NCBI RefSeq assembly: GCF_029784135.1
Contig: NC_073744.1
Span: forward strand, 83,535,035 to 83,599,034
Length of the DNA: 64,000 nt
Reading direction: 5' to 3'
From: Toxorhynchites rutilus septentrionalis
Taxonomy: Eukaryota > Arthropoda > Insecta > Diptera > Culicidae
Each line of letters opens with the position of its first letter. Positions within the stretch are counted from its first letter, which is position 1. Shown piece after piece: positions 8,698-39,591 of the stretch. The notes beneath the pieces were generated by a model, which was not told where the DNA came from, made no database searches, and was given only the letters and a program-made list of their open reading frames with translations. A program made the translations under genes and the position numbers.

Positions 8698-9910
8698 TTG
8701 ACGTGGGACTACGTCTAACCGGAGTATATGGGGGGTAAAATGAAAACCCAAACACAGAACATGCAGGAAAAAATGAAAAATTCCGAATGCTTATAACTCG
8801 AACATTTCTTACTGGATCGGAAAGATGTTTGCATCAATTGATAGGGAATATTTGTACGCTTCCATCGCAATTAATAAAATGTTATTTTTCATTAGATTAA
8901 CAATTGAATAACTGTAAAATGTTAAGCGTTATCTAAACGCCCTAACTGTCTCATTTTGATTGGCCCCATCTACGGTTTCTCTAACACAGCCATCAGCCAT
9001 AAAGCAGCCTTGGGGAAAACGGCATTGCAAATACATGAAAGTATGGGGACTTTTGTTCTCACCGAGATGTGTTCCCTAACACAGACTTCAAAACCAAGCA
9101 GCGTTCGAGTGATCGGCATTGCAAATACATGAAAGTCGTGAGTATTTCTGTTCCGACTGAAATGTGTTTCCCTAACACAGACTTCAAATACATGGAGCTT
9201 AGGGAAATTGGCATGCAAGTTGGGGGTGTTTTTGTTCCGACTGAAATGTGTTTCGCTAACACAGACTTCTAATCCAAAGAGCGTGGGGGAAATTGAAACT
9301 TTTTGTTCCGACTGAAATGTGTTTTCCCAACATAGACTTTAGAACCAAGGTGTCTGAGGAAACTGATATTGCAAATTCATGCAAGTCGGTGGCATTTCGT
9401 GTTTGCCTAACACAGACTTCAAAACCTAGATGTCTGGGAAAATCGGCTCAGCAATCAAATGCAAACTTCGAATACTTTTGTACTCGCTTGCCTTTGTGCA
9501 AACTTGAATATGTTTCCTTAAAACGGTCTTCCGGGGGTACTTATGCACTCGCATGTTTTTTTGCACTTCGAAAAGTGTTTTCCTAACACGGATTACAAAA
9601 GCGGGTACGAACACCACGCTTCGGCTCGGTTATTCAAGATTGTATTGAAGGATATGCCTTCACATCTTCTGCTCACAGAATTCCGACGCATACCATTTGA
9701 TGATTAGGCATCATGTAGATAAACAATTGCTGCGATGACGCCTATTGATTAAACAATATGCGTTTGACGTACATAGCAAAATCGAAACTGAGTGCCTGAA
9801 GTTCATCAGATCAAGCAAATCAAATATATTGAATTCAATTGAATTCGGAAATTGTTTCAATCAATCAAAAATATAATCAATACAAACAAATGATTGCTAC
9901 GCTAAGATAG
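8698..9910 (+). mobile_element. D2: Helentron/DINE-like element, family gamma, 3' end lost
   Basis: It begins TTGACGTGGGACTACGTC after a T run and repeats the D1 5' block. After the block comes the minisatellite array, then the 3' block ending GCTAAGATAG at 9910, where sequence switches to the F1 poly-G units. The inverted motif and hairpin expected next are missing. D1 and D2 lie in opposite orientations, making a large imperfect inverted repeat around 6.6-8.7 kb. Confidence 0.6.
8951..9600 (+). repeat. Minisatellite of D2, units about 70-85 bp
   Basis: Units carry TTCCGACTGAA (9151, 9235, 9306) followed by a GTTTCCCTAACACAGACTTC-like segment. The first 226 bp is the exact duplicate of 7940-8165. 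Open frames on both strands are by-products of the repeat. Confidence 0.85.
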
Positions 9911-19671: not shown

Positions 19672-20009
19672 CAAAGTTGTTCGTGTCCGTTATTGTGTTG
19701 GAACAATACCGTTATCGGTTTCGCTGAAGTGATTGTGTCGCTCTAACGGTGTTTTCTTTATTGCGAGAGTGAAGTGATAAGTAATCACAACCAGCGGGAG
19801 GGAGAAGTCCTCCACTGCGGGCGCTGTGAGCGTGTGCCGTTCCTCGTCATCGTATTGTGGTGCGATACACCATTGCTGTTGTGCCAAGCGATCATCACGT
19901 GGTTCGATTGGAGCACCGTTACCGTGCGCTTCAAGTATTTTAGTTTATATATATATTAGGTTAAGGATTTAAAAAGAAAAAGAAAAAGTATAATTGTATA
20001 TCTGCCATA

Positions 20010-21575
20010 ATGGCAGAGTGCGATCCTCTTGATATGGACATTGAATCTGATGTTTCCTCCTCACTAACTACTGGGAAGTCGCTTAAACGCGTTCCCCCCT
20101 CAGACGATGTCTTTTCAGAGGAAGAGTTAATCAACCTCAACAAGCCCCCTTCAAGAAAATTGGCAAACTTTTCCACTTCGCCCCCTCAATCTCCCGCTCC
20201 CGCTTCCGATTATCTCCCGAACTTGCCTCCCAGCCCAACTGTTCCCGCTTCCGCTCAACAATCGACCTCGTCCTCCCCCGCAGTTGTCCCCTCTCCGCGT
20301 GTCAAGGTCTATCCAGAAGATGCATCTGGATCTGGCCCATGGGTTGTTTTCTTCCGGCCAAAACCCAACGGGAAATCGCTCAACGTCATTCAGATCATGA
20401 AAGATCTGACAAAAAATTATTCCTCCGTGGTCGAAATTAGAAAGGTTCGACCGAACAAACTGCGTGTTGTCGTGGCTGATCGGAAGCAAGCTAACGAGAT
20501 TGTTGTCGACAATAGGTTCGTACTAGAATATCGCGTCTATGTGCCCTGCCATAACGTAGAAATTTCGGGGGTGATCACAGAAACGGGTCTGACGAGCGCA
20601 TTAATAAAAGAGGGAGATGGCAGATTTAAAAAGCTCCCTTTGACGAAAGTTAAAATTTTGGACTGCCATCAATTAGGAAAAGTGTCCCAGGAAGAGGGAA
20701 AAACAAAATTCACCCCGTCCGACTCGTTTCGAGTAACTTTTGCTGGTTCCGCCCTCCCTGACTACGTTATGGTGGACAAATTGAGGCTTCCGCTGCGTCT
20801 CTTCGTGCCAAAGCCCATGACTTGCAACAAATGCAAGTCAGTTGGTCACACAGCAGACTACTGCGCCAACAAGGAGCGCTGTGCCACTTGCGGAGAGCAA
20901 CATGTGGGCAAATCCTGCAGTGCGACTGAGCATAAGTGTCCATATTGCGGGGGGACCCCACATGAGCTCTCAGCTTGTGAAAATTACAAGAGTCGCTGGG
21001 AGAAACAGAAGCGCTCTTTAAAGGAACGCTCGAAACGCACTTTTGCGGAAATTTTAAAGGGCGCTTCTCCACAGGCCCAACAACAACAACATCCAATCTC
21101 CTCACACAATATCTTTTCCACGTTGCCAGTTGACGAAATGGAAGCGGACACAGCTCACGGGGGTACACCGTTTATTTCCCAAGGGAATCCCCGGCGCAAA
21201 AATGTGACCACTCCCAAAATTCAATCACAAGTCCCTCCGGTGATATCCCCTGTTAGCTTGCCTAAAAAAACGAGTGCAGCGGACAAGCAAAATCAGGTTC
21301 CTCCTGGCTTCCGTGGGAATAGTTCACCTTCGAACGACCCAGCACTCGAGGGGACATCAAAAACCCCAACTGTCCCTATTTTTCCGTCCAGCTCAACTTC
21401 CCAATCGGGATTTATAAAGTTGTCTGACCTTTTGGATCAAATCTTCAAGTGTTTTAACGTTTCCGACTCCATCAGAACCATTGTCATTTCAATGCTTCCA
21501 GTATTAAAGACAATTTTGCAACAATTGATGCAAACATGGCCCCTCCTTGCAATGATTATCTCTCTTGATGTCTAA
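20010..21575 (+). CDS. Copy B ORF1: Gag-like RNA-binding protein, 521 aa, intact
   Basis: The protein would bind and package element RNA and shuttle it with ORF2. Layout: Ser/Pro-rich low-complexity N-terminus (residues 1-100), a central domain from about 105 to 265 conserved with copy A, then three knuckles: first C272 (C-x2-C-x4-H-x4-C), second (C-x2-C-x3-H-x4-C), third C310-C323 (C-x2-C-x4-H-x4-C). After this come a basic stretch (KRSLKERSKR), a Gln/Pro/Ser-rich linker and a hydrophobic C-terminal helix region (about 465-521). The start at 20010 is supported by the matching MAE- start of copy A. The stop overlaps the ORF2 start. No frame-disrupting change is seen. The function is known for the family; activity here is inferred. 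Confidence 0.92.
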   Translation: MAECDPLDMDIESDVSSSLTTGKSLKRVPPSDDVFSEEELINLNKPPSRKLANFSTSPPQSPAPASDYLPNLPPSPTVPASAQQSTSSSPAVVPSPRVKVYPEDASGSGPWVVFFRPKPNGKSLNVIQIMKDLTKNYSSVVEIRKVRPNKLRVVVADRKQANEIVVDNRFVLEYRVYVPCHNVEISGVITETGLTSALIKEGDGRFKKLPLTKVKILDCHQLGKVSQEEGKTKFTPSDSFRVTFAGSALPDYVMVDKLRLPLRLFVPKPMTCNKCKSVGHTADYCANKERCATCGEQHVGKSCSATEHKCPYCGGTPHELSACENYKSRWEKQKRSLKERSKRTFAEILKGASPQAQQQQHPISSHNIFSTLPVDEMEADTAHGGTPFISQGNPRRKNVTTPKIQSQVPPVISPVSLPKKTSAADKQNQVPPGFRGNSSPSNDPALEGTSKTPTVPIFPSSSTSQSGFIKLSDLLDQIFKCFNVSDSIRTIVISMLPVLKTILQQLMQTWPLLAMIISLDV

Positions 21576-24500
21576 TTCAAATAGAGAGGTCGGAGATATC
21601 ACTGTTTTACAGTGGAATTGTCGTAGTCTTATCCCTAAATTGGATACATTCAAATTTTTAATTCATAAGTTCAATTGTGATGTTTTTGCTCTGTCCGAAA
21701 CTTGGCTTTCTTCGCGAGATGATCTCTCTTTCCATGATTTCAATATTGTACGCTTGGACCGTGATGACAGATACGGAGGGGTGCTATTGGGGATCAATAA
21801 GTGCCACTCATTTTTTCGAATTGACCTTCCACCTATTGGAGGGATTGAAGCTGTTGCTTGTCATGCAAACATCAGAGGCAAAGACCTCTGTATTGTCAGC
21901 TTGTATTGGCCTCCGAGAGCTGCGGTTAGCCGCAAGCAACTTGTTGACATGTGCTCACTCCTTCCTGAGCCACGATTGATCTTGGGAGACTTCAACTCTC
22001 ACGGAACTGCCTGGGGGGAACAGTACGACGACAATCGTTCATTGTTGATATATGACCTTTGTAACAGCTTCAATATGACCGTTTTGAACACTGGGGAAAC
22101 AACACGTGTACCTAAACCTCCTGCTAACCCAAGTGCTCTTGACCTCTCGCTTTGCTCGAATTCACTATCGTTAGATTGCAAGTGGGATGTAATCCAGGAC
22201 CCCAACGGTAGTGATCACTTGCCAATCAAAATTTCCATCACCATTGGGTCGAATTCTTCTGAATCTATAAACATGGCATATGACCTCACAAGACACATTG
22301 ACTGGAAAAAATATGCGGACGCGATTACTCTAGCCATCAATTCCAGAGATGGTTTACCTCCATTGGAGGAGTATAACTTCCTTTCTCGTTTGATCTATGA
22401 CAGCGCAGTTCGCGCTCAAACGAAACCCAATCCAGGTTCCACCATTTTCCGAAGGCCTCCCAATCTATGGTGGGATAGCCAATGTTCCAAGCTTTATGTA
22501 GAAAAATCGAATGCATTTAAAGCTTTTCGGAAACGTGGTACTCCTGAAAATTTTCAAACGTATTTAGCCCTTGAGAATCAGTTCAAAAATTTGATCAAAG
22601 GGAAAAAACGTGCTTATTGGCGAAATTTCGTGGGAGGTTTGTCACGAGAAACGTCAATGAAAAAATTATGGAAAGTGGCTCGAAACATGAGAAATCGCTC
22701 TTCATCCAATGAAAGCGAGGAATATTCACATCGATGGATCTTTAATTTTGCACGAAAGGTTTGTCCTGATTCAGCTCCTGTGCAAAAATTTGTTCGAGAT
22801 ATACCACAAGATAGGTGCGATCTTGATTCCGAGTTTTCGATGGTAGAATTCTCTCTTGCTCTCCTTTCATGTAACAATTCTGCTCCGGGATCGGATAGAA
22901 TTAAGTTCAACTTGCTGAAAAATCTCCCTGATGTGGCGAAACATCGCTTGTTGAACTTATTCAATCGGTTTCTGGAGCATAATATTGTTCCAGATGATTG
23001 GAGACAAGTACGAGTTATAGCTATTCAAAAACCCGGAAAACCCGCGTCCGACTTCAATTCGTACCGCCCAATAGCAATGCTGTCTTGTATACGGAAATTG
23101 TTGGAGAAAATGATCTTGTTTCGCCTTGATCGATGGGTTGAAACGAATGGCCTACTCTCAGATACACAATATGGGTTCCGCAGGGGCAAGGGGACGAATG
23201 ATTGTCTTGCGTTGCTTTCTTCAGAAATTCAATTGGCTTACGCCGAAAAAAAACAAATGGCTTCAGTATTCTTGGACATAAAGGGGGCCTTTGATTCTGT
23301 TTCAATAGAGGTCCTGTCAGACAAATTACACTCTCGGGGTCTGCCGCCTCTATTGAATAATATGTTATATAACTTGCTTTGTGAGAAACATTTGAATTTT
23401 TCTCACGGGGATTCGACAGTAAGTCGGGTCTCCTACATGGGACTCCCCCAGGGCTCATGTTTAAGCCCCCTTTTGTACAACTTCTATGTAAGCGACATCG
23501 ACAATTGCCTTACACAAAATTGCAACCTAAGACAACTTGCAGATGATGGAGTGGTGTCTGTCGTAGGATCACACGAATCCGAACTGCAAGGACCCTTACA
23601 AGATACTTTGAACAATTTTTCAACCTGGGCCATTGGGCTAGGGATCGAATTCTCCACGGAGAAAACAGAGATGGTGGTTTTTTCTAGGAAGCATAGACCA
23701 GCAAAACCAAAGCTTCAACTTTTGGGTAAACCGATCACTCATGCTATGTCTTTCAAGTATCTTGGGGTCTGGTTCGACTCCAAATGTACTTGGGGGGCCC
23801 ATATTAGGTATCTGAGTAAAAAATGCCAACAAAGAATAAACTTTCTCCGTACAATTACCGGCACCTGGTGGGGAGCCCACCCAGAAGATCTTATAATGTT
23901 GTATCGAACAACTATTCTCTCAGTGATGGAGTATGGCAGTTTCTGTTTTCAATCAGCTGCCAAAACACACCTCATTAAACTCGAGCGAATTCAGTATCTT
24001 TGTCTCCGTATTGCGTTGGGATGTATGCCCTCAACGCATACCATGAGTCTCGAGGTTTTGGCAGGCGTACTCCCACTAAAAGATCGCTTCAATTTATTAT
24101 CTCTTCGGTTCTTCATTCGGTGTAAGGTTATGAACCCATTGGTGATCGGAAATTTTGAGCAGCTGATCGAGCTAAATTTTCATTCTGGATTCATGAGCTC
24201 ATATCATGAATTCGTCTCCATGCAGGTTGATCCTTCTTCGTATATACCCAACCGTGTTTGTTTTCCTGACTACATCAATTCCTCTGTGCATTTTGATCTG
24301 TCCATGATGCAGGATATCCATGGAATTCCAGATTATCATCGATCGGGGATCGTTCCTACGATTTTCGAAGCAAAGTATGGGCGTGTCAATTGTGATAATA
24401 TGTACTTTACTGATGGGTCCTCTATGAATGAGTCCACAGGATTTGGAGTGTTCAACAAATTTTTTAGCACCTCACACAGTCTTCAGTATCCTTGCTCAGT

Positions 24501-25251
24501 GTATATTGCTGAATTGGCAGCAATACACTGGGCGCTGGACAGCGTCGCCTCACGACCTGTTGAACACTATCACATTGTAACGGATAGTCTTAGCTCTGTC
24601 GAAGCTATCCGTTCAGTGAGGCCGGAAAAGCACTCGCCGTACTTCCTTGAGAGAATACGAGAAATTTTGAGTGCTTTATCCAGACGCTGTTATGTCATTA
24701 CCTTTGTCTGGGTCCCTTCACATTGCTCAATTCCGGGTAATGAGAGGGCTGACTCATTAGCAAAGGTAGGTGCAATTGAAGGCGAAATTTATCAGCGTCA
24801 AATCGCCTTCAATGAATTTTATTCTTTAGTTCGTAAAAATACCATCGTTAACTGGCAACGCAAATGGAACGAAGATGAATTGGGCCGGTGGCTCCACTCA
24901 ATTATCCCTAAGGTTAGCCTCAAACCGTGGTTCAAAAGTCTGGAATTGAGTCGGGACTTTATTCGCACCTTCTCCCGACTCATGTCCAATCACTGTTCGT
25001 TAGACGCGCTGCTTTTTCGTTTTAATCTTGCCGACAGCAATCTCTGCGGTTGTGGCCATGGTTACCACGATATCGAACACGTTGTTTGGTCGTGCGAGTT
25101 GTATCTTGTCGCCAGATCGAATTTAGAAAACTCCCTTCGGGCTGGAGGAAAGCAGTCCAATGTGCCGGTGAGAGATGTGTTGGCTCGGTTAGACCTTGAT
25201 TACATGTCCCAAATATATGTTTTCCTTAAAGCTATCGATCTTCGAGTGTGA
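21568..25251 (+). CDS. Copy B ORF2: endonuclease-reverse transcriptase-RNase H, 1227 aa, intact
   Basis: It catalyses target-primed reverse transcription: the endonuclease nicks DNA, the reverse transcriptase copies the element RNA, and RNase H removes the template. Visible key residues: endonuclease N17, E44, D141/N143 and D216-H217; reverse transcriptase D570 (FLDIKGAFDS), GLPQGSCLSP, D659-D660 in LADDG; RNase H D949 (TDGS), E982, D1006, H1052 and D1062. A C-terminal cysteine-histidine segment starts at about C1160 (CGCG, then IEH, then SC). The ATG at 21568 is chosen over upstream codons because ATGTCTAA overlaps the ORF1 stop, as in copy A. Length and order are normal for the I clade. All catalytic residues are present, so an active enzyme is plausible. 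Confidence 0.94.
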   Translation: MSNSNREVGDITVLQWNCRSLIPKLDTFKFLIHKFNCDVFALSETWLSSRDDLSFHDFNIVRLDRDDRYGGVLLGINKCHSFFRIDLPPIGGIEAVACHANIRGKDLCIVSLYWPPRAAVSRKQLVDMCSLLPEPRLILGDFNSHGTAWGEQYDDNRSLLIYDLCNSFNMTVLNTGETTRVPKPPANPSALDLSLCSNSLSLDCKWDVIQDPNGSDHLPIKISITIGSNSSESINMAYDLTRHIDWKKYADAITLAINSRDGLPPLEEYNFLSRLIYDSAVRAQTKPNPGSTIFRRPPNLWWDSQCSKLYVEKSNAFKAFRKRGTPENFQTYLALENQFKNLIKGKKRAYWRNFVGGLSRETSMKKLWKVARNMRNRSSSNESEEYSHRWIFNFARKVCPDSAPVQKFVRDIPQDRCDLDSEFSMVEFSLALLSCNNSAPGSDRIKFNLLKNLPDVAKHRLLNLFNRFLEHNIVPDDWRQVRVIAIQKPGKPASDFNSYRPIAMLSCIRKLLEKMILFRLDRWVETNGLLSDTQYGFRRGKGTNDCLALLSSEIQLAYAEKKQMASVFLDIKGAFDSVSIEVLSDKLHSRGLPPLLNNMLYNLLCEKHLNFSHGDSTVSRVSYMGLPQGSCLSPLLYNFYVSDIDNCLTQNCNLRQLADDGVVSVVGSHESELQGPLQDTLNNFSTWAIGLGIEFSTEKTEMVVFSRKHRPAKPKLQLLGKPITHAMSFKYLGVWFDSKCTWGAHIRYLSKKCQQRINFLRTITGTWWGAHPEDLIMLYRTTILSVMEYGSFCFQSAAKTHLIKLERIQYLCLRIALGCMPSTHTMSLEVLAGVLPLKDRFNLLSLRFFIRCKVMNPLVIGNFEQLIELNFHSGFMSSYHEFVSMQVDPSSYIPNRVCFPDYINSSVHFDLSMMQDIHGIPDYHRSGIVPTIFEAKYGRVNCDNMYFTDGSSMNESTGFGVFNKFFSTSHSLQYPCSVYIAELAAIHWALDSVASRPVEHYHIVTDSLSSVEAIRSVRPEKHSPYFLERIREILSALSRRCYVITFVWVPSHCSIPGNERADSLAKVGAIEGEIYQRQIAFNEFYSLVRKNTIVNWQRKWNEDELGRWLHSIIPKVSLKPWFKSLELSRDFIRTFSRLMSNHCSLDALLFRFNLADSNLCGCGHGYHDIEHVVWSCELYLVARSNLENSLRAGGKQSNVPVRDVLARLDLDYMSQIYVFLKAIDLRV

Positions 25252-25645: not shown

Positions 25646-26160
25646 AAATCATACCTGATTTCCTTTTCACCAACTATTCTTTTCTTTTGCTGGCTTTTTA
25701 TACTATTTCAATATACTTGCTTTACTTGACTTCTTGCTTCTCGGACTCTAACCAGGAAATGGCAACTTTTCCACTCAATTCTTCCAAGTAGCGTCATCTT
25801 CTTATTTTTCCTCTTCTATTTTCAAGCAATTTTCTTTCTATCTCTAATAGCTCATTTTTATTCCCTTTTCTCATTCACCGTTTATTATAGCATCCAGGGA
25901 CTGCAGCTTTTTATGGTGCATATGTATGTGTAGTGTGTGTGGAATATTTCTTATTTCTATATATTGTATATACTATAAATAAATAATTTCGGAGCTTTTT
26001 TTAAATTCTTTAATACTAATTAGAGCCTACATAAGCAGAACAGTAACAACATTAAAAAAAACTCTTTCACATGAATGTATTTTTCAATTCCCAGGGGAAC
26101 TTTGGCAGATTTTTTTTCAGCAACGATTAGATTTTTCCAGGTTTTCCTCGAAAATCCATT

Positions 26161-26620
26161 CCTTCTTTAAGCGTGATTCATTCTGCTTAGGATCAACGGA
26201 ACAGTATGATAATCATTTGATACAAAAGATAAAATGTCCAAGAGTTAGATGATTTCTATTTATTGACTCAAAAAATTGTTTCAATAGCTTAATAATAGCT
26301 TCGAAAACAGGAAATCAATCGTATCCGTATGTAGCGCGCCCACTTGGAAACCTATTAATCTTATTGGAATGTGAGATGGGGGAACTCACATGCACGTCTA
26401 TGCATTATGATGTACTCTTCCAATTAATTTCGTTTTTGCAGGACGAACTGAAAAATTTTCAGTCGAGTTAACTCTCTTTTACAGTAATGCTTTTGAATCA
26501 GGCTAAGCTACGAATATAAAAAAGAGAGTGGGGTTTACATTCTATACAGTTATGGTTTAGAATATGAAGCTTCCTTTGCTTTCGTTCATTTCTTACTCTA
26601 CTCTCGCACCGTGAGGACTC
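26161..26620. other. Family-beta repeat fragments and unassigned sequence
   Basis: 26200-26300 resembles part of D3 in the opposite orientation (AAAGATAAAATGTC segment). A TATA-like ATATAAAAAAGAG lies near 26515, about 115 bp before the H3 pseudogene, and could be its old promoter. Confidence 0.4.
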
Positions 26621-26631
26621 GTTTCATCGGG

Positions 26632-26951
26632 ACCAAGCAGACAGCTCGTTAGTCTTTCGGTGGTAAGGCACTACGAAAGCAGCTCGGATAAGCGCATCAA
26701 CCGCAGGAAGTGTGAAGAAGCCACAACGCTACCAACCGAGAACTTTGCGTGAAACTCGTCGCTATCAGACGTCGACCGAATTGTTGATCCGCAATCTTCC
26801 TTTGCAGCGTTTGGTTCGTGGAATTGCCCAAGACTTCAAAACCGACTTCACATTATGCCCAAGAGAAGATTATGCCAAAAGACTTCACATTATGCCCAAG
26901 GACATCCAGCTGGCCTATCGTATCCGAGGAGAATGTGCTATATTAGCTTAG
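26632..26951 (+). pseudogene. Histone H3 pseudogene
   Basis: H3 is a core nucleosome protein. The conserved N-terminus is readable as TKQTAR at 26632-26649, then GGKA and RKQL, broken by stops. From 26712 a frame runs on: [37 protein letters not shown], then a gap in the region of the second and third helices, then [14 protein letters not shown] near the C-terminus. The start codon, several frames and about 25 residues of the fold are lost, so it cannot make a histone. A replication-type histone 3' stem-loop follows at 26964, so this is a copy of a cluster-type histone gene rather than of a polyadenylated mRNA. Confidence 0.9.
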
Positions 26952-26963
26952 CATATAATCAAC

Positions 26964-26979
26964 GGCTCTTTTCAGGGCT
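26964..26979 (+). terminator. Histone mRNA 3' stem-loop of the H3 pseudogene
   Basis: GGCTCTTTTCAGGGCT matches the metazoan histone 3'-end stem-loop GGYYCTTTTCAGRRCC except for a final C to T. It lies 13 bp after the H3 reading frame. Confidence 0.8.
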
Positions 26980-27057
26980 CCAAATTTGATGGATTAGAGT
27001 TCAGAAAAGTTTTTTGCAGGCCGAACTGAAAGGAGCATTTAGCGAAAATCGTGGTTT

Positions 27058-28000
27058 AGTTTAGTTTATTCTTTACTATCAACAGGCCTGAACATGAGTG
27101 CCCTAATGATACCTAATTAATTAATAACATAAAATACTTAATCTACTTAAAACTATGCCTAACTGGAAAGAGCGGTCAAGAATACCTTTCTTAAACTGGC
27201 GCGAGATAAGTGAAAGTCATAAGATAAGTAACAGCGGTTAAATACACGAGACATACTCGATACGGGTTCGTTGTAACCGTAGTTTGTGCGAGAGTGAGGA
27301 AGGCAGAGAAATGTATGTGAACGCAGGTTACGAGGGCGTATAATAAAATAGAACGACTAAAGAAGATCAGCACAATCGATTTTCGAGGAAATTAGATCGG
27401 ATATAAAAGTTGCCTTCGCTACATCTCTACGTACGCTCAACAAATCGAGTCAGATCAATTTACAACGATCCTCATAGCTGGGTAAGTTCGAAGGATCGCT
27501 CCAGGGCAAGTTGCGTAGGGCGAAACGGACGAATTTCCGCTGGATCACCTCAATTCGCTGGACACTATTTTGGTAGTAGGGAGACCATACTATGCACGCA
27601 TATTCAAGATGAGAGCGCACTAAAGCACAATAAAGAGCTTTGATACAATGTGGGTCTTTGAATTGCTTTGTGATGCGAAAAATGAAACCTAACATCCTAG
27701 ATGCCTTGGTGGTGATGTATGAGATATGGTCGTTGAACGTTAGCTTTGAGTCTAAGACGATACCAAGTTCCCTGATAGTTACAACACGTTTCAAAGAGAT
27801 ATTGCGTATTTTATACGAAAATGTTACAGGCGATCGTTTCCGCGTGAACGATATGACTGAACACTTTGCTGGATTTAAAACCATTCTATTGGTTTCGCAC
27901 CAATCAGAGAAAATATCGAGTTGTTGCTGTAGGAATATCGCATCATCGACACTATTCACAGTGTAGAACAATTTGAAATCGTCCGCATATGCATGATAAT
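27058..28000 (-). mobile_element. 5'-truncated non-LTR retrotransposon fragment
   Basis: A minus-strand LINE remnant with the end of the reverse transcriptase and the C-terminal region. Its 3' end is AATAAACTAAACTAAACC at about 27056-27075, a short-repeat terminus as in CR1- or Jockey-like LINEs. The clade is not assigned. Confidence 0.75.
27159..27998 (-). pseudogene. LINE reverse transcriptase C-terminal part
   Basis: The catalytic YADD is encoded at 27978-27989 (minus strand). It is followed by CSVISFTRK, ELGIVLDSKLTF, ALVRSHLEYACIVWSP and LPSYEDRCKL, a typical order for LINE RT thumb and linker regions. An in-frame stop follows EDRCKLI at 27447-27449. Beyond it the same frame continues with RRDVAKATF and NEPVSSMSRVFNR to a stop at 27159. 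Upstream of YADD the frame is broken and the rest of ORF2 is missing. It is unrelated to copies A-C at sequence level. Confidence 0.8.
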
Positions 28001-28479
28001 TCGATACCGATAGGTGCCATGGATATGGATTTCATAATGAAGAATATGAAATATATGACATGATGTAGTGAATATATCCCCATATCGAAGAAATCACTTT
28101 GATGAAACTGCATTATAAAATTATTTGTGTACGAATGCCGCAATCGATAGTCGACTCTAATTTGCGCTGGGTAATTTCCTCGGAGGACTCGATTCCTTCA
28201 TTGAGCATTAATAATCTCTTTCTGGCAAAACGAAGTGGTATGAATCACATTATTCGAAAGATAAAATGAAGATGTTTTCTGCCCATTTCCTTCGACCTCC
28301 AAACATCTCTTTCTCCCGTTTGTCGTTTTTGCGTTCGCTAATCCTTTCTCACAACACCCATTTCTCGTTTGAGAAATTGCTGAGTAAACATCGTTTGCCA
28401 GTGCGCGTAGAGCGGGAATTCCTTAAGATTCATTGCACCTCTAATAAATTGCCGAAAGACGTGGTCTTACGTTGATCGC
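28001..28479. other. Unassigned, with a D-like palindrome at 28456-28477
   Basis: GACGTGGTCTTACGTTGA at about 28461 resembles the D 5' palindrome on the minus strand, perhaps a separate decayed D end. No gene seen. Confidence 0.35.
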
Positions 28480-35740: not shown

Positions 35741-35914
35741 AAAAAGTACTTGAGATAAATAATAACAACACAGGTTTTCCTTATCAGGATACCTAAAGAA
35801 TATCTCTACTGTGTGTTGTGACAAGTAGAATTTTCAGAATTTTGTTTCATCGAGTGCCCGACAATTCGCACAAACATAATCATATCACTTACCGCAGTGA
35901 ATCCTGATTTTTGA
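35741..35914. other. Short spacer
   Basis: No gene seen. Confidence 0.4.
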
Positions 35915-36620
35915 CGTGGGACTACGTCTAACCGGAATATATGGGGGGGTAAAATGAAAACATAAACACTGAACATGCAGGAATAAATACAAGATTTCGA
36001 ATGCTTATAACTCGAAAATTTTCTACTGGATTGGAAAGATCTTTGCATCAATTGATAGGGAATATTTCTACGCATATGTCGCAATTAATGAAATGTTATG
36101 TTGACGTAGGACTACGTCTAACCGGAAGATATAGGGGGTGAAATGGAAATCTAGGCACTGAACAAGTACGAAAAAATGCAAGATTTGGAACGCTTATAAC
36201 TCGAGCATTTCTCAATAGATCGCAAAGGTTTTTGCATCAATTGATAGGAAATATATCTACGCATCTATCATAACGAATAACATTTCATTTTTCTTGAGAT
36301 AAATAATTGAATAATTGTGAAATATCAAGCATTCTCAAAATTCACTATGTGCCCATTTTTGATTGGTCCATTTTGTGCTCCTCAAATCGTACCGACCAAA
36401 ACGGGCAACCAGAGCAGCAGCGAAATAGAATGAAGCACGATTGGAAAGGAAAAAGAAAAAAATGAACGAAACATTGGTCGCAGTCTCACACATGCGTAAT
36501 TCTCGAGGCAGCCAGTCAGCTTAAAAATCCCCGCTCCGCTGCCGTAACGATCATTCTCATTCAAACCGTACACCACATCGGTTCGCATCACAACACATCA
36601 ACAAACCAACCCAAGCACCC

Positions 36621-36860
36621 ATGTCTGGACATGGTAAAGGAGGAAAAGTGAAGGGAAAGGCAAAGTCCCGCTCGAACCGTGTTGATATGGAGTTCCCCGC
36701 AAGGGTAGCTAGGCCGAGCGCGTTAGTACCAGTGCACCAGTCGCCGCCGTTATATAGTTTCGGCCGCCGAAGTGATCGAGTTGGCTGGTAAAGCTGCTCG
36801 CGACGATAAGAAAAACCGCATTCAGAACAGAACACATTAAGACAACAACAGGCAGTTGCA
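36621..36860 (+). pseudogene. Histone H2A pseudogene 1
   Basis: H2A pairs with H2B in the nucleosome. The start is well preserved: ATG at 36621, then MSGHGKGGKVKGKAKSRSNR, one residue different from the usual insect N-terminus. Then frameshifts begin. Pieces of LLRKGN, ERVGAGAP and YLAAV can be recognised in other frames, and a clear segment equivalent to EVLELAGNAARDNKKTRI is at about 36768-36825. The first frame stops at about 36789-36791. Upstream CTTAAAAATCCCC (about 36518) and a CATTCTCATTC segment look like an old core promoter. A degenerate histone stem-loop lies downstream at 37045-37062. Confidence 0.85.
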
Positions 36861-37044
36861 GCGAGTGGCGAGTGGCAAACGCAATCGCAAAACGGCAGCA
36901 GGTAGCAGAAGAAAAAAGTTTGTTCTTTTTACAATCTGCTTTGGTGGCAAATCCAGAACAAGGCGGCATCGAGGGCGTTCGAAATGGTTTTTTTTTCAAA
37001 ACCACGAGTACTAAGTTTTCTAAATTGGAACCATTCCATAAAAC

Positions 37045-37062
37045 AAGGCGCTTTTCAGGGTC
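37045..37062 (+). terminator. Degenerate histone 3' stem-loop after H2A copy 1
   Basis: AAGGCGCTTTTCAGGGTC keeps the CTTTTCAGG loop, but the left stem is mutated. Confidence 0.5.
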
Positions 37063-37439
37063 ATTAAACCTTCCAAAAAAAGAGTTTAGGAAATAAAGTT
37101 CAATGCGTTCTAAAACATTATCCAAAATAATAATAAAACACAAATTGATGTTTTCATAATTTGTTTGCCAGGATCTGATGAGTATGTGAATTTGGCAGTA
37201 GTTCTGAGCTTATTGATAGTTGGGGACTTTCAAGATTATTCAATTTTCACCAACTCTTAAATTGTTTCCAGATTGAAAGTACAGTAATTTACAATTAGTT
37301 CGACATTTAGCTAATTGGACGGACATGTAATGCGACTTATTTAGTCGGACATTTTTGTAAACATAGAGATCCAAATTATGACCGCACATTGAAAGTCGAC
37401 ACTGTACCACTGTCATCGCAAATGTTCAATTACAGGTTC

Positions 37440-38380
37440 AAATCGCCTCCAATGCGACAGTGAGTGGCGCTTCGGTACGTTGCATTGAATGTAATTTACT
37501 GTAAAATATGTCACAAGCTGGATGGGAAGAAATTTTCCAACTGTGAAAGATGAGGCGAGTGGCAAATGCAATCGCTAAACAGAAAGGTTTAGCCGAACAA
37601 GATGGGGATAACGAGTGACAACAAAACAATAAACTCTTTAGATTGAAGATAATTTTGTGATCCTGAAAAGGACCCTTTTCAGCCTGCATGTGAATCCAAC
37701 GAGCGAACAAATCGTAATGAATGTATTTTTTTTGCCATCGCTCCCTTTTAACGCTCATTCGTTCGTCTCGTTGGACTCGCCCCTCTGGCTGAGTCTGCCG
37801 ATTTGTCTCTATCCTGTGAGTGTGTACCGCTAGAGTTTAAAACACGCGGACCCCAAAAAAATATCTTATTTTCTTTCAAACCGTAAACCCGTGTGGTTGT
37901 ACGGCATCGGCACCGTGGACGTAACAAAGGAGGACAAGTTAAGGAAAAGGCAAAGTCTCACTCGAACCGTGCAGGTCTCCAGTTCTCTGTTGGTCGCATT
38001 CACTGATTGCTCCGCAAGGGTAACTAGGCCGAACGGATTGGTGCCGGAGCACCAGTATACCTAACAGCGATTATAGAGTTTCGGCCGTCGGAGTGCTCGA
38101 GTTGGCTTGCAAAGCTGCTCACGACAATCAGAAAACCCGCATCAAGAACAGAGCAGCTTCGGTTCGGCGCTCATCAAGGCAACAATTAGTTTCAGTGAGT
38201 GGCAAACTGCTTCTCCGGCACGTCGCATTAAATGTAATTTACTGAACAATATGTCACAAGCTGGATAGGAAGAAATTTTCCAACTGTGAAAGCTGTGGCG
38301 AGTGGCAAACGTATTAGCTAAACAGGAAGGTTTAACCGAACAAGATGGGAATATCGAGTGATAACAAAAACACAACACCA
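37440..38380 (+). repeat. Degenerate direct repeats, period about 700-740 bp, around the H2A copies
   Basis: The segment GAGTGGCAAACGCAATCGC recurs with changes near 36867, 37557 and 38297. The stretches at 37450-37630 and 38200-38370 are alignable by eye throughout. This suggests that a tandem multi-unit histone segment was taken up, not a single gene. A near-palindrome at 37663-37682 (CTGAAAAGG and CCTTTTCAG arms) resembles a histone stem-loop. Confidence 0.6.
37913..38175 (+). pseudogene. Histone H2A pseudogene 2
   Basis: The start codon is lost. Readable pieces in order: [17 protein letters not shown], a stop, LLRKGN, a stop, AERIGAGAPVYL, then in a shifted frame the segment equivalent to EVLELAGNAARDNKKTRI. 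It is independent of copy 1 (different stops and indels), so the duplication is old. A stem-loop-like GGTTCTTTTCAACC follows at 38383. Confidence 0.85.
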
Positions 38381-38382
38381 AA

Positions 38383-38396
38383 GGTTCTTTTCAACC
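38383..38396 (+). terminator. Histone-type 3' stem-loop after H2A copy 2
   Basis: GGTTCTTTTCAACC keeps the TTTTCA loop region and a self-complementary stem. Confidence 0.55.
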
Positions 38397-38664
38397 CTCA
38401 ACATATTCATAAAGAGTAAACAGTAAACTAATCCATTTTTCAGGTAGATAGGTAGGTATTCACGTAGGAGAAGAAAATAAAACAATATATTTAAAATATA
38501 TATTTAACAAAAGCTGTCCCCTTTGTATAGTCCTACGTCACTCCGGTTACGTCCCTGACATTACCCACCCGTCTTTTTAATTAGATAAATAATTGAATAA
38601 CTGTAAAATGTTAAGAGCTATCTCAACGCCCTAACTACCTCGTTTTGATTGGTCCGCATTACGG

Positions 38665-39190
38665 TTTCCCCATCACATACTTCGAAACCAAGCTGCCTTG
38701 GGGAAATCGGAATTGCAAATACATGAAAGTAGTGGGAGCTTTTGTTTCCACCGAAATGTGTTTCCCTAACACAGACTTCAAATCCAAGGAGCGTGGGGAA
38801 GTTGGCATTGCAAATTCATGCAAGTCGGGGTCATTTTTGTTCCGACTGAAATGTATTTCCCTAACACATACTTCAAATCCATGGAGCGAGGGGAAATTGG
38901 CTTTGCAAATATATGCAAGTCGGGGGCATTTTTGTTCCGACTAAAATATGTTTCCTAAACACAGACTTCAGAACCAAGGTGTCTAGAGAAATTGGGATTG
39001 CAAATTTATGCAGATCGGGAGTATTTTTGTTCCGACTGAAATCTGTTTACCTATAAAGACTTCTAAACCAAGGTGTCTGGGGAAATCGGCATTACAAATA
39101 CATGCAAACTGCGAGTACATTTGTACTTGCTTGCCTTTGTGCAGACTAGAGCATGTTTCCCTAACACGGTCTTTTAAACTTAGGTACCTG
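38665..39190 (+). repeat. Minisatellite of D8/D10
   Basis: About six units of 70-95 bp of the same type as in D1 and D2 (TTTTTGTTCCGACTGAAAT, CTAACACAGACTTC). Open frames through it are artefacts of the repeat. Confidence 0.85.
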
Positions 39191-39591
39191 GTAAAATCGT
39201 GCAGACACTAGAGACATGGCATTCGTTCAAACTTTTTACTCACAACGCAAATATATTGAATTCGGAAATGGTTTAATTTAATCAAAGATCAATACAAACA
39301 AATGATTATTAAGCTAAGATAGTCCCACGTCAACCTTGCGATTATATCATAGATATAACCCACCCTTTTTCTTAGCCATTCCCACTAACAACTATCCCTT
39401 CCATGATAAACGCTAGGGAACCACGCTATAGAAGCGACCCTTCTGGCCTTCGGGCGGCGGCGAATATCATACTAACATTCCTTCCCTTCCCCTGGTGACT
39501 GTGAGGACGTGGCCGGCCTCGTTATTGACCATTTAAAGCTCGAATCACCGAAAATTGCACAACGAGAATGATTTGCTAGTCCCAAGCGTCA

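Follow-up and report, generated by a model that had tools for sequence, protein, structure and literature searches.

HINEs are defined as non-autonomous Helentrons (Thomas, Vadnagara and Pritham 2014; PMC4067079), and the passages of that paper on HINEs and on DINE-1 elements describe a palindromic subterminal repeat lying 2-4 nt from the 5' end, an inverted copy of this repeat near the 3' end, a 3' hairpin, insertion into runs of T with a variable number of T residues and without target duplication, and internal tandem repeats. Canonical Helitrons, as characterized there, begin with TC, end with CTRR and insert between A and T. Histone sequences have been described within such elements: Helentron-Cq-32A of Culex quinquefasciatus contains fragments of an H4-superfamily gene and of a linker-histone gene, and its eight copies show a premature stop, a frameshift and indels (PMC4067079). 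Here, we describe an element carrying histone H2A sequences in a 64,000-nucleotide stretch (hereafter the window; C1:83535035-83599034 within the 902.6-Mb genome) of the mosquito Toxorhynchites rutilus septentrionalis. From its sequence, this element is probably a complete non-autonomous rolling-circle transposon of Helentron/HINE type with two decayed H2A copies, likely moved by Helentrons whose own gene is followed by a histone-type 3' signal predicted to tie the mRNA to S phase.

The segment at 36101-38573 is a complete mobile element, which starts with TTGACGTAGG (its first bases are also given as TTGACGTAGGACTACGTC) and ends with CCACCCGTC. A genome search with 451 bp of its H2A interior (36560-37010) returned 2498 first-look candidates and at least 40 relatives with 98-100% identity, and the places listed are distributed to contigs C1 (22), C2 (13), C3 (4), and C210 (1). 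Twenty copies, including that of the window, were retrieved with their flanks. Nineteen of these are complete, with identical ends and lengths of 2466-2505 bp, and the remaining one (L057) is broken close to its 5' end. Pairwise differences among the complete copies average 0.41% and reach 0.65% at most, values that describe the youngest group because the copies were chosen by their likeness to that of the window. The left flank ends with TT in 18 of the 19 (the exception is the window copy, with G), the right flank starts with TTTT in all 19, and there is no target duplication at these T-run sites.

Empty sites were sought by joining the flanks of each copy and looking for an uninterrupted paralogue in the DNA already retrieved. 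Local matches across the joint were obtained for nine of the 19 copies; two of them (L041 and L056) were dropped, since there the copy had largely been aligned with its own 3' end and flank, and seven were accepted, clearly for L039, L040, L042, L050, and L053 and with weaker identity (72-79%) for L048 and L052. Filled sites mostly hold a few more T residues than the empty site; in the window copy the surplus is two bases, TG. The window copy is itself inserted in an outer HINE of the minisatellite type, uninterrupted versions of which are present in the window at 6559-6263 (minus strand) and 8737-9035 (plus strand). The original prediction, made from the letters of the window, had placed a mobile element at 36100..38573 as an insertion interrupting another element; the interruption lies where it was predicted, the exact start is 36101, and, as it had anticipated for a transposed composite, the H2A interior occurs elsewhere (at least 40 relatives), the ends recur in 19 of the 20 copies and 7 of 19 have an empty site. 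As for distribution, 20 of the 22 listed C1 copies lie at 80-109 Mb, near the middle of the contig, and one copy (L030, C210:18869-19320) is found in a contig that also carries histone gene clusters. The features of the element and of the outer HINE are given below by position in the window.

35911..36100, plus strand: 5' part of the outer minisatellite-type HINE (from the empty-site comparison)
36101..38573, plus strand: complete mobile element of 2473 bp, read as an H2A-carrying HINE (non-autonomous Helentron); both ends common to 19 of 20 retrieved copies
36103..36118, plus strand: 5' palindromic subterminal repeat GACGTAGGACTACGTC, 2 nt from the 5' end (hairpin z -3.4)
36621..36876, plus strand: first H2A unit, a pseudogene with frameshifts and a TAG shared with the second unit (tblastn E 1.25e-15, in three frames; aligned to the host H2A gene)
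37047..37062, plus strand: decayed histone stem-loop after the first unit, identified by eye; the same place in the older copy L056 scores 21.8 bits with Rfam RF00032, below gathering
37280..37503, no strand assigned: MITE-like (miniature inverted-repeat transposable element) insert with ends TACAGTAATTTACA / TGTAATTTACTGTA, identified by eye
37633..37679, minus strand: weak histone stem-loop match (Rfam RF00032, 18.0 bits, E 4.7; gathering score 34)
37917..38143, plus strand: second H2A unit, a pseudogene with the same TAG as the first (tblastn E 7.7e-27)
38365..38573, plus strand: 3' module also present in Helentron family I (L085 726-936; 95.7% identity over 211 bp)
38383..38416, plus strand: decayed histone stem-loop and AAAGAG of the 3' module; all 19 complete copies have a broken stem, L085 and L087 an intact one
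38528..38539, plus strand: 3' subterminal repeat TAGTCCTACGTC, an inverted copy of the 5' repeat, 34 nt from the 3' end
38545..38565, plus strand: 3' terminal hairpin, GGTTATGTCCCTGACATTACC in the family form (z -3.3), from which the window copy departs by one T to C change
38574..39365, plus strand: 3' part of the outer HINE, with a 95-bp minisatellite at 38664-39107 and its 3' end near 39365 (from the empty-site comparison)

The termini of the element agree with those of HINEs. The palindromic repeat GACGTAGGACTACGTC lies 2 nt from the 5' end in all 19 complete copies, its inverted copy is present near the 3' end, a hairpin follows in the family form (the window copy's own 46-nt end folds no better than shuffled sequences, z 0.16), and the insertion sites are T-rich, vary in the number of T and lack target duplication. 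Tandem repeats, another attribute of HINE and DINE-1 elements, are found here in sister elements of the H2A element. The 3' repeat is 34 nt from the end, compared with ~38-60 nt in the mite families of PMC4067079, and the H2A element differs from the HINE and DINE-1 elements of those passages in carrying H2A and in forming a family of near-identical 2.5-kb copies. Its ends, TTGACG and CACCCGTC, and its T-run sites are unlike the 5' TC, 3' CTRR and A/T insertion of canonical Helitrons, with which it shares relatives encoding Rep/helicase and the capture of host DNA (PMC4067079). The predicted course of events, in which histone DNA was acquired by a Helentron/DINE-like element and transposed along with it, is thus supported by the shared ends, the H2A interior and the empty sites, and the class by the 3' end that the element shares (95.7% over 211 bp) with an element encoding Rep and an endonuclease match.

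Both H2A segments that had been noted in the interior were detected by tblastn, and in each of them the TAG occupies the tyrosine 39 codon. This TAG rules out the originally proposed independent decay of the copies; because it is common to both, the two units would most simply derive from one dead ancestor. The same TAG is present in two of the older copies compared (L058 and L051); a third, L042, has TCG at this position, which speaks against a single dead ancestor and is most simply a later change. An older copy adjoining L056 (89-92% identical) extends from the first unit through the 3' module without the second H2A unit, and an old copy adjoining L042 retains an H2A stretch that is absent from the first unit of the window copy. 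Since older copies differ in their H2A content in this way, it follows that decay of the cargo took place while the family moved. The host gene used for comparison was a single one (L059), which encodes an ordinary insect H2A. In the alignment with L059, similarity to the first unit begins at or after the ATG; upstream of the first unit there is no match to this gene, and the captured promoter-like sequence that had been suggested did not find support. The histone 3' stem-loops suggested at the same time are decayed in the window copy, where the best Rfam score is 18.0 bits against a gathering score of 34.

Candidate autonomous Helentrons were identified by a search for the Rep domain (Helitron_like_N, PF14214), which gave at least 132 matches in the genome, with open frames of up to 1674 aa. 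The 1674-aa frame belongs to family I (C2:6602146-6607167), scores 85.1 bits for Helitron_like_N, contains DUF6570 close to its start (E 2e-10) and shows a match to Exo_endo_phos_2 in its last 89 aa (E 4.6e-4, below the curated cut-off); the element to which it belongs extends from before C2:6602146 to 6607835. The 3' regions of the family I loci L085 and L087 match at 99.8% identity over 539 bp, up to the end of the element, where they diverge. In family II, the Rep frame of the L088 element terminates at C2:320575355 with an endonuclease-like stretch; the endonucleases of families I and II share 61% identity over 69 aa. The H2A element was likely moved by Helentrons sharing its 3' end, and the Rep/helicase/endonuclease of such an autonomous element would act in trans on its ends.

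The 3' signal of replication-dependent histone genes is bound by SLBP and undergoes U7-guided cleavage, giving mRNAs that have no poly(A) tail and are restricted to S phase; the AAAGAG motif we take to be the downstream element able to pair with U7 small nuclear RNA (snRNA). Nine Rep loci were examined downstream of the gene. At seven of them, representing three families (L085 and L087 of family I; L088, L090, and L094 of family II; L091 and L092 of family III), a histone stem-loop, a 14-nt spacer and AAAGAG are present downstream on the Rep strand, before the Helentron 3' end. The family I sequence, on the same strand as the gene and downstream of its stop codon, is CCAAAGGTTCTTTTCAGAACCACCAACATGTTCATAAAGAG, and the distance from stop codon to stem-loop is ~470 nt in family I and ~290 nt in family II (L088). 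The Rfam model RF00032 (Histone3) assigned 40.5 bits to family I (L085 and L087) and 38.1 bits to family III (L091 and L092), both above the gathering score of 34, and host genes scored 41.3 (H3), 36.1 (H2B), 35.3 (H4), and 30.0 bits (H2A); the best Helentron stem-loops fit the model on a par with those of the host. The stem is followed at 14 nt by AAAGAG in each of the seven Helentron 3' regions, as it is in host H3 genes (L001 and L004-L008), and no stem-loop with AAAGAG was found in 40 simulated 128-kb controls. In a control scan of the window with the same model, the only matches (18.0 and 17.9 bits) fell within the two histone-carrying elements that the window contains. AATAAA and ATTAAA are both absent between the stop codon and the stem-loop in L088 and across 601 bases in L091 and L092. 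The Helentron signal resembles that of replication-dependent histone genes in its stem-loop, its ACCA-type flank and the AAAGAG at 14 nt, as in the host H3 gene of L004, and it is unlike them in following a gene for Rep and endonuclease.

BLAST comparison of the 3' regions between families aligned only the stem-loop and/or the terminal repeat, and the stems of families I and III differ in a paired manner (GGTTCT/AGAACC against GGCTCT/AGAGCC). The stem pairs are intact in the seven Rep loci with a readable 3' end, whereas they are broken in all 19 young H2A elements, a distribution that fits a signal acting on the transposase message. Because these 19 elements have spread recently with a broken stem, the stem-loop is, as judged from the copies, dispensable in cis for movement of the DNA. 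A pattern for family I, consisting of the exact stem-loop half, 115-145 bases and the terminal repeat, was found at 355 places in the genome (190 forward and 165 reverse), autonomous and non-autonomous copies alike being covered, and the same pattern read backwards was found at none. A genome scan for the stem-loop itself (RF00032) gave 199,592 first-look candidates, of which 75 were scored; 66 of the 75 pass the gathering score, 11 are located in histone clusters and 64 elsewhere. Many of the dispersed stem-loops fall into groups of identical score (18 at 42.0 bits and 11 at 35.5 bits), as expected of mobile copies. Among the matches listed, one dispersed stem-loop (C1:122894924) coincides with a place of the family I pattern, and further stem-loop-bearing mobile families are likely to be present.

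Several observations weigh against this interpretation of the Helentron 3' ends. The nine loci examined are a limited sample of the at least 132 Rep matches, and two of them, L089 (a family with a 1169-aa Rep) and L093 (which reads as a gene of another transposon), have no stem-loop, neither piece containing a recognizable Helentron 3' end. The family II stem-loop reaches 22.9 bits, which is below the gathering score, although host H2A falls below it too. In family III, the frames found at the Rep match have lengths of just 417 and 266 aa, and distance is the sole link between Rep and stem-loop. Host genes do not all keep the 14-nt spacing either: it is 16 nt in the H3 gene of L002 and 18 nt in one H4 region, and the host H2B and H4 genes of L004 have no AAAGAG within 30 nt. 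In family I, the stem-loop is preceded at ~110 nt by one AATAAA and followed by another, which makes ordinary polyadenylation possible. An old non-autonomous copy, L056, keeps its stem-loop, and presence alone is thus no proof of selection. Finally, a comparison with the 2.2 kb of L086, most of which lies upstream of the frame, did not reveal the autonomous element's 5' end, and therefore only the 3' end ties family I to the H2A element.

In the mechanism that we propose, SLBP would bind the stem-loop and the U7 small nuclear ribonucleoprotein (snRNP) would take part in cleavage of the transposase mRNA, so that the message would be made without a poly(A) tail and mainly during DNA replication. 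The histone signal would have entered together with captured histone genes, the H2A and H3 bodies of which would then have decayed as passengers. We give about even chances to the wider proposal that Helentrons of this insect have taken over the histone mRNA pathway, with a stem-loop-ended, U7 snRNP-cut, SLBP-bound and non-polyadenylated message made at replication, and that H2A and H3 (in Culex, H4-type and linker histones) were captured repeatedly as Helentrons acquired and renewed this signal. The proposal bears on how rolling-circle transposition is timed within the cell cycle, and the literature searched, mainly at the level of abstracts and with few subscription journals, did not describe any transposon that makes use of a histone stem-loop. 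Histone capture by itself is already known; the histone-type 3' signal behind a Helentron gene is the larger and unexpected point.

A less probable explanation is that the stem-loop has no role and is a hitch-hiking remnant of captured histone genes, which would simply be passengers of ordinary Helentrons. These elements do commonly contain captured histone genes whose stem-loops are at various stages of decay, a perfect stem-loop is retained in the old H2A element of L056, and the young H2A family lost its stem-loop and spread all the same. A remnant would, however, be expected at varied places and to decay as the histone bodies do, whereas in three families the stem-loop shares the strand of Rep, lies shortly ahead of the Helentron 3' end and keeps the same 14-nt spacing to AAAGAG, and the stems differ by paired changes while the rest of the 3' region cannot be aligned between families. 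Movement of the H2A element by a cut-and-paste transposase, as a MITE, or by a long interspersed nuclear element (LINE) is very unlikely: DINE-like elements were formerly called MITEs (PMC4067079) and short inverted subterminal repeats are present, but the element has no terminal inverted repeats and no target duplication, inserts into T-runs, ends with a terminal hairpin and shares its 211-bp 3' module with a Rep-encoding element. That the H2A block is an immobile product of accidental rearrangement or segmental duplication is hardly credible, since local duplication might contribute to the concentration of C1 copies at 80-109 Mb but the block is neither unique nor an accident, given its repeated copies on all three large contigs and C210, with common ends (19 of 20), differing flanks and empty sites (7 of 19). 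A mobile HINE served by Helentrons with a histone-type 3' signal thus remains the interpretation that we prefer.

The window contains a second histone-carrying element.

26153..28268, plus strand: second histone-carrying HINE copy, with an H3 pseudogene at 26632-26939 (tblastn E 5e-29; match to the H3-HINE of L068)

This copy is split by ~0.94 kb (27056-27992) that, by eye, is part of a LINE on the minus strand. The whole element is present in the reverse complement of L068 (2007 to ~3408), with an H3 pseudogene, a stem-loop and a Helentron-type 3' end, and its first 19 bases are those of the H2A element. The H3-carrying HINE family is older than the H2A family. In total, 28 imperfect histone matches were taken as lying outside the clusters, and 22 of them were retrieved (L060-L066 and L070-L084). 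H3 pseudogenes account for 19 of the 22, and the other three are different genes, namely an H3-like gene (which may be centromeric), an H2B gene and an H3.3-like exon. By reading of the alignments, 16 of the 22 loci match the L068 element outside the histone gene too, a count that includes the L063/L068 reference itself and L066 by way of its 97% identity to L060; the H3 loci L061, L065, and L082 gave no element-specific match within the short stretch read.

These families resemble Helentron-Cq-32A in being Helentrons with decayed histone fragments, and the Culex report rules out histone capture by a Helentron as wholly new (PMC4067079). The histone-carrying family that the original prediction regarded as notable does exist, although it is not the first. 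It differs from the Culex element in its cargo (H2A and, in a second family, H3), in its larger number of copies (at least 40) and in the histone 3' signal behind the Rep gene, which is absent from the account of the Culex element in PMC4067079.

Some further loci were observed. At C3:278.46 Mb, L003 (1418-1933) contains an intact H3 gene that is 99.6% identical over 516 bp to the H3 gene of L002; this copy begins 3' of the L002 TATA-like box, stops short of the stem-loop, lies ~100 bp from a HINE 3' end and is possibly a recent retrocopy or a fresh capture. The units of the 95-bp minisatellite (38664-39107 and its sisters) hold GGG..TTTT..CC, which was caught by a loose histone stem-loop scan, probably by chance. 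In addition, a pair of long open frames of 536 and 1231 aa at 19965-25251 of the window looks, by eye, like that of a LINE, apparently young.

The association of 16 of the 22 dispersed histone-like loci with HINEs matters for the annotation of histone genes. If the proposed function of the 3' signal is true, a transposase gene with the ending of a replication-dependent histone gene would provide a direct and testable link to S phase, a reason would be given for the presence of histone genes inside Helentrons, and a non-histone gene, in families of differing sequence, would be using the SLBP/U7 pathway.

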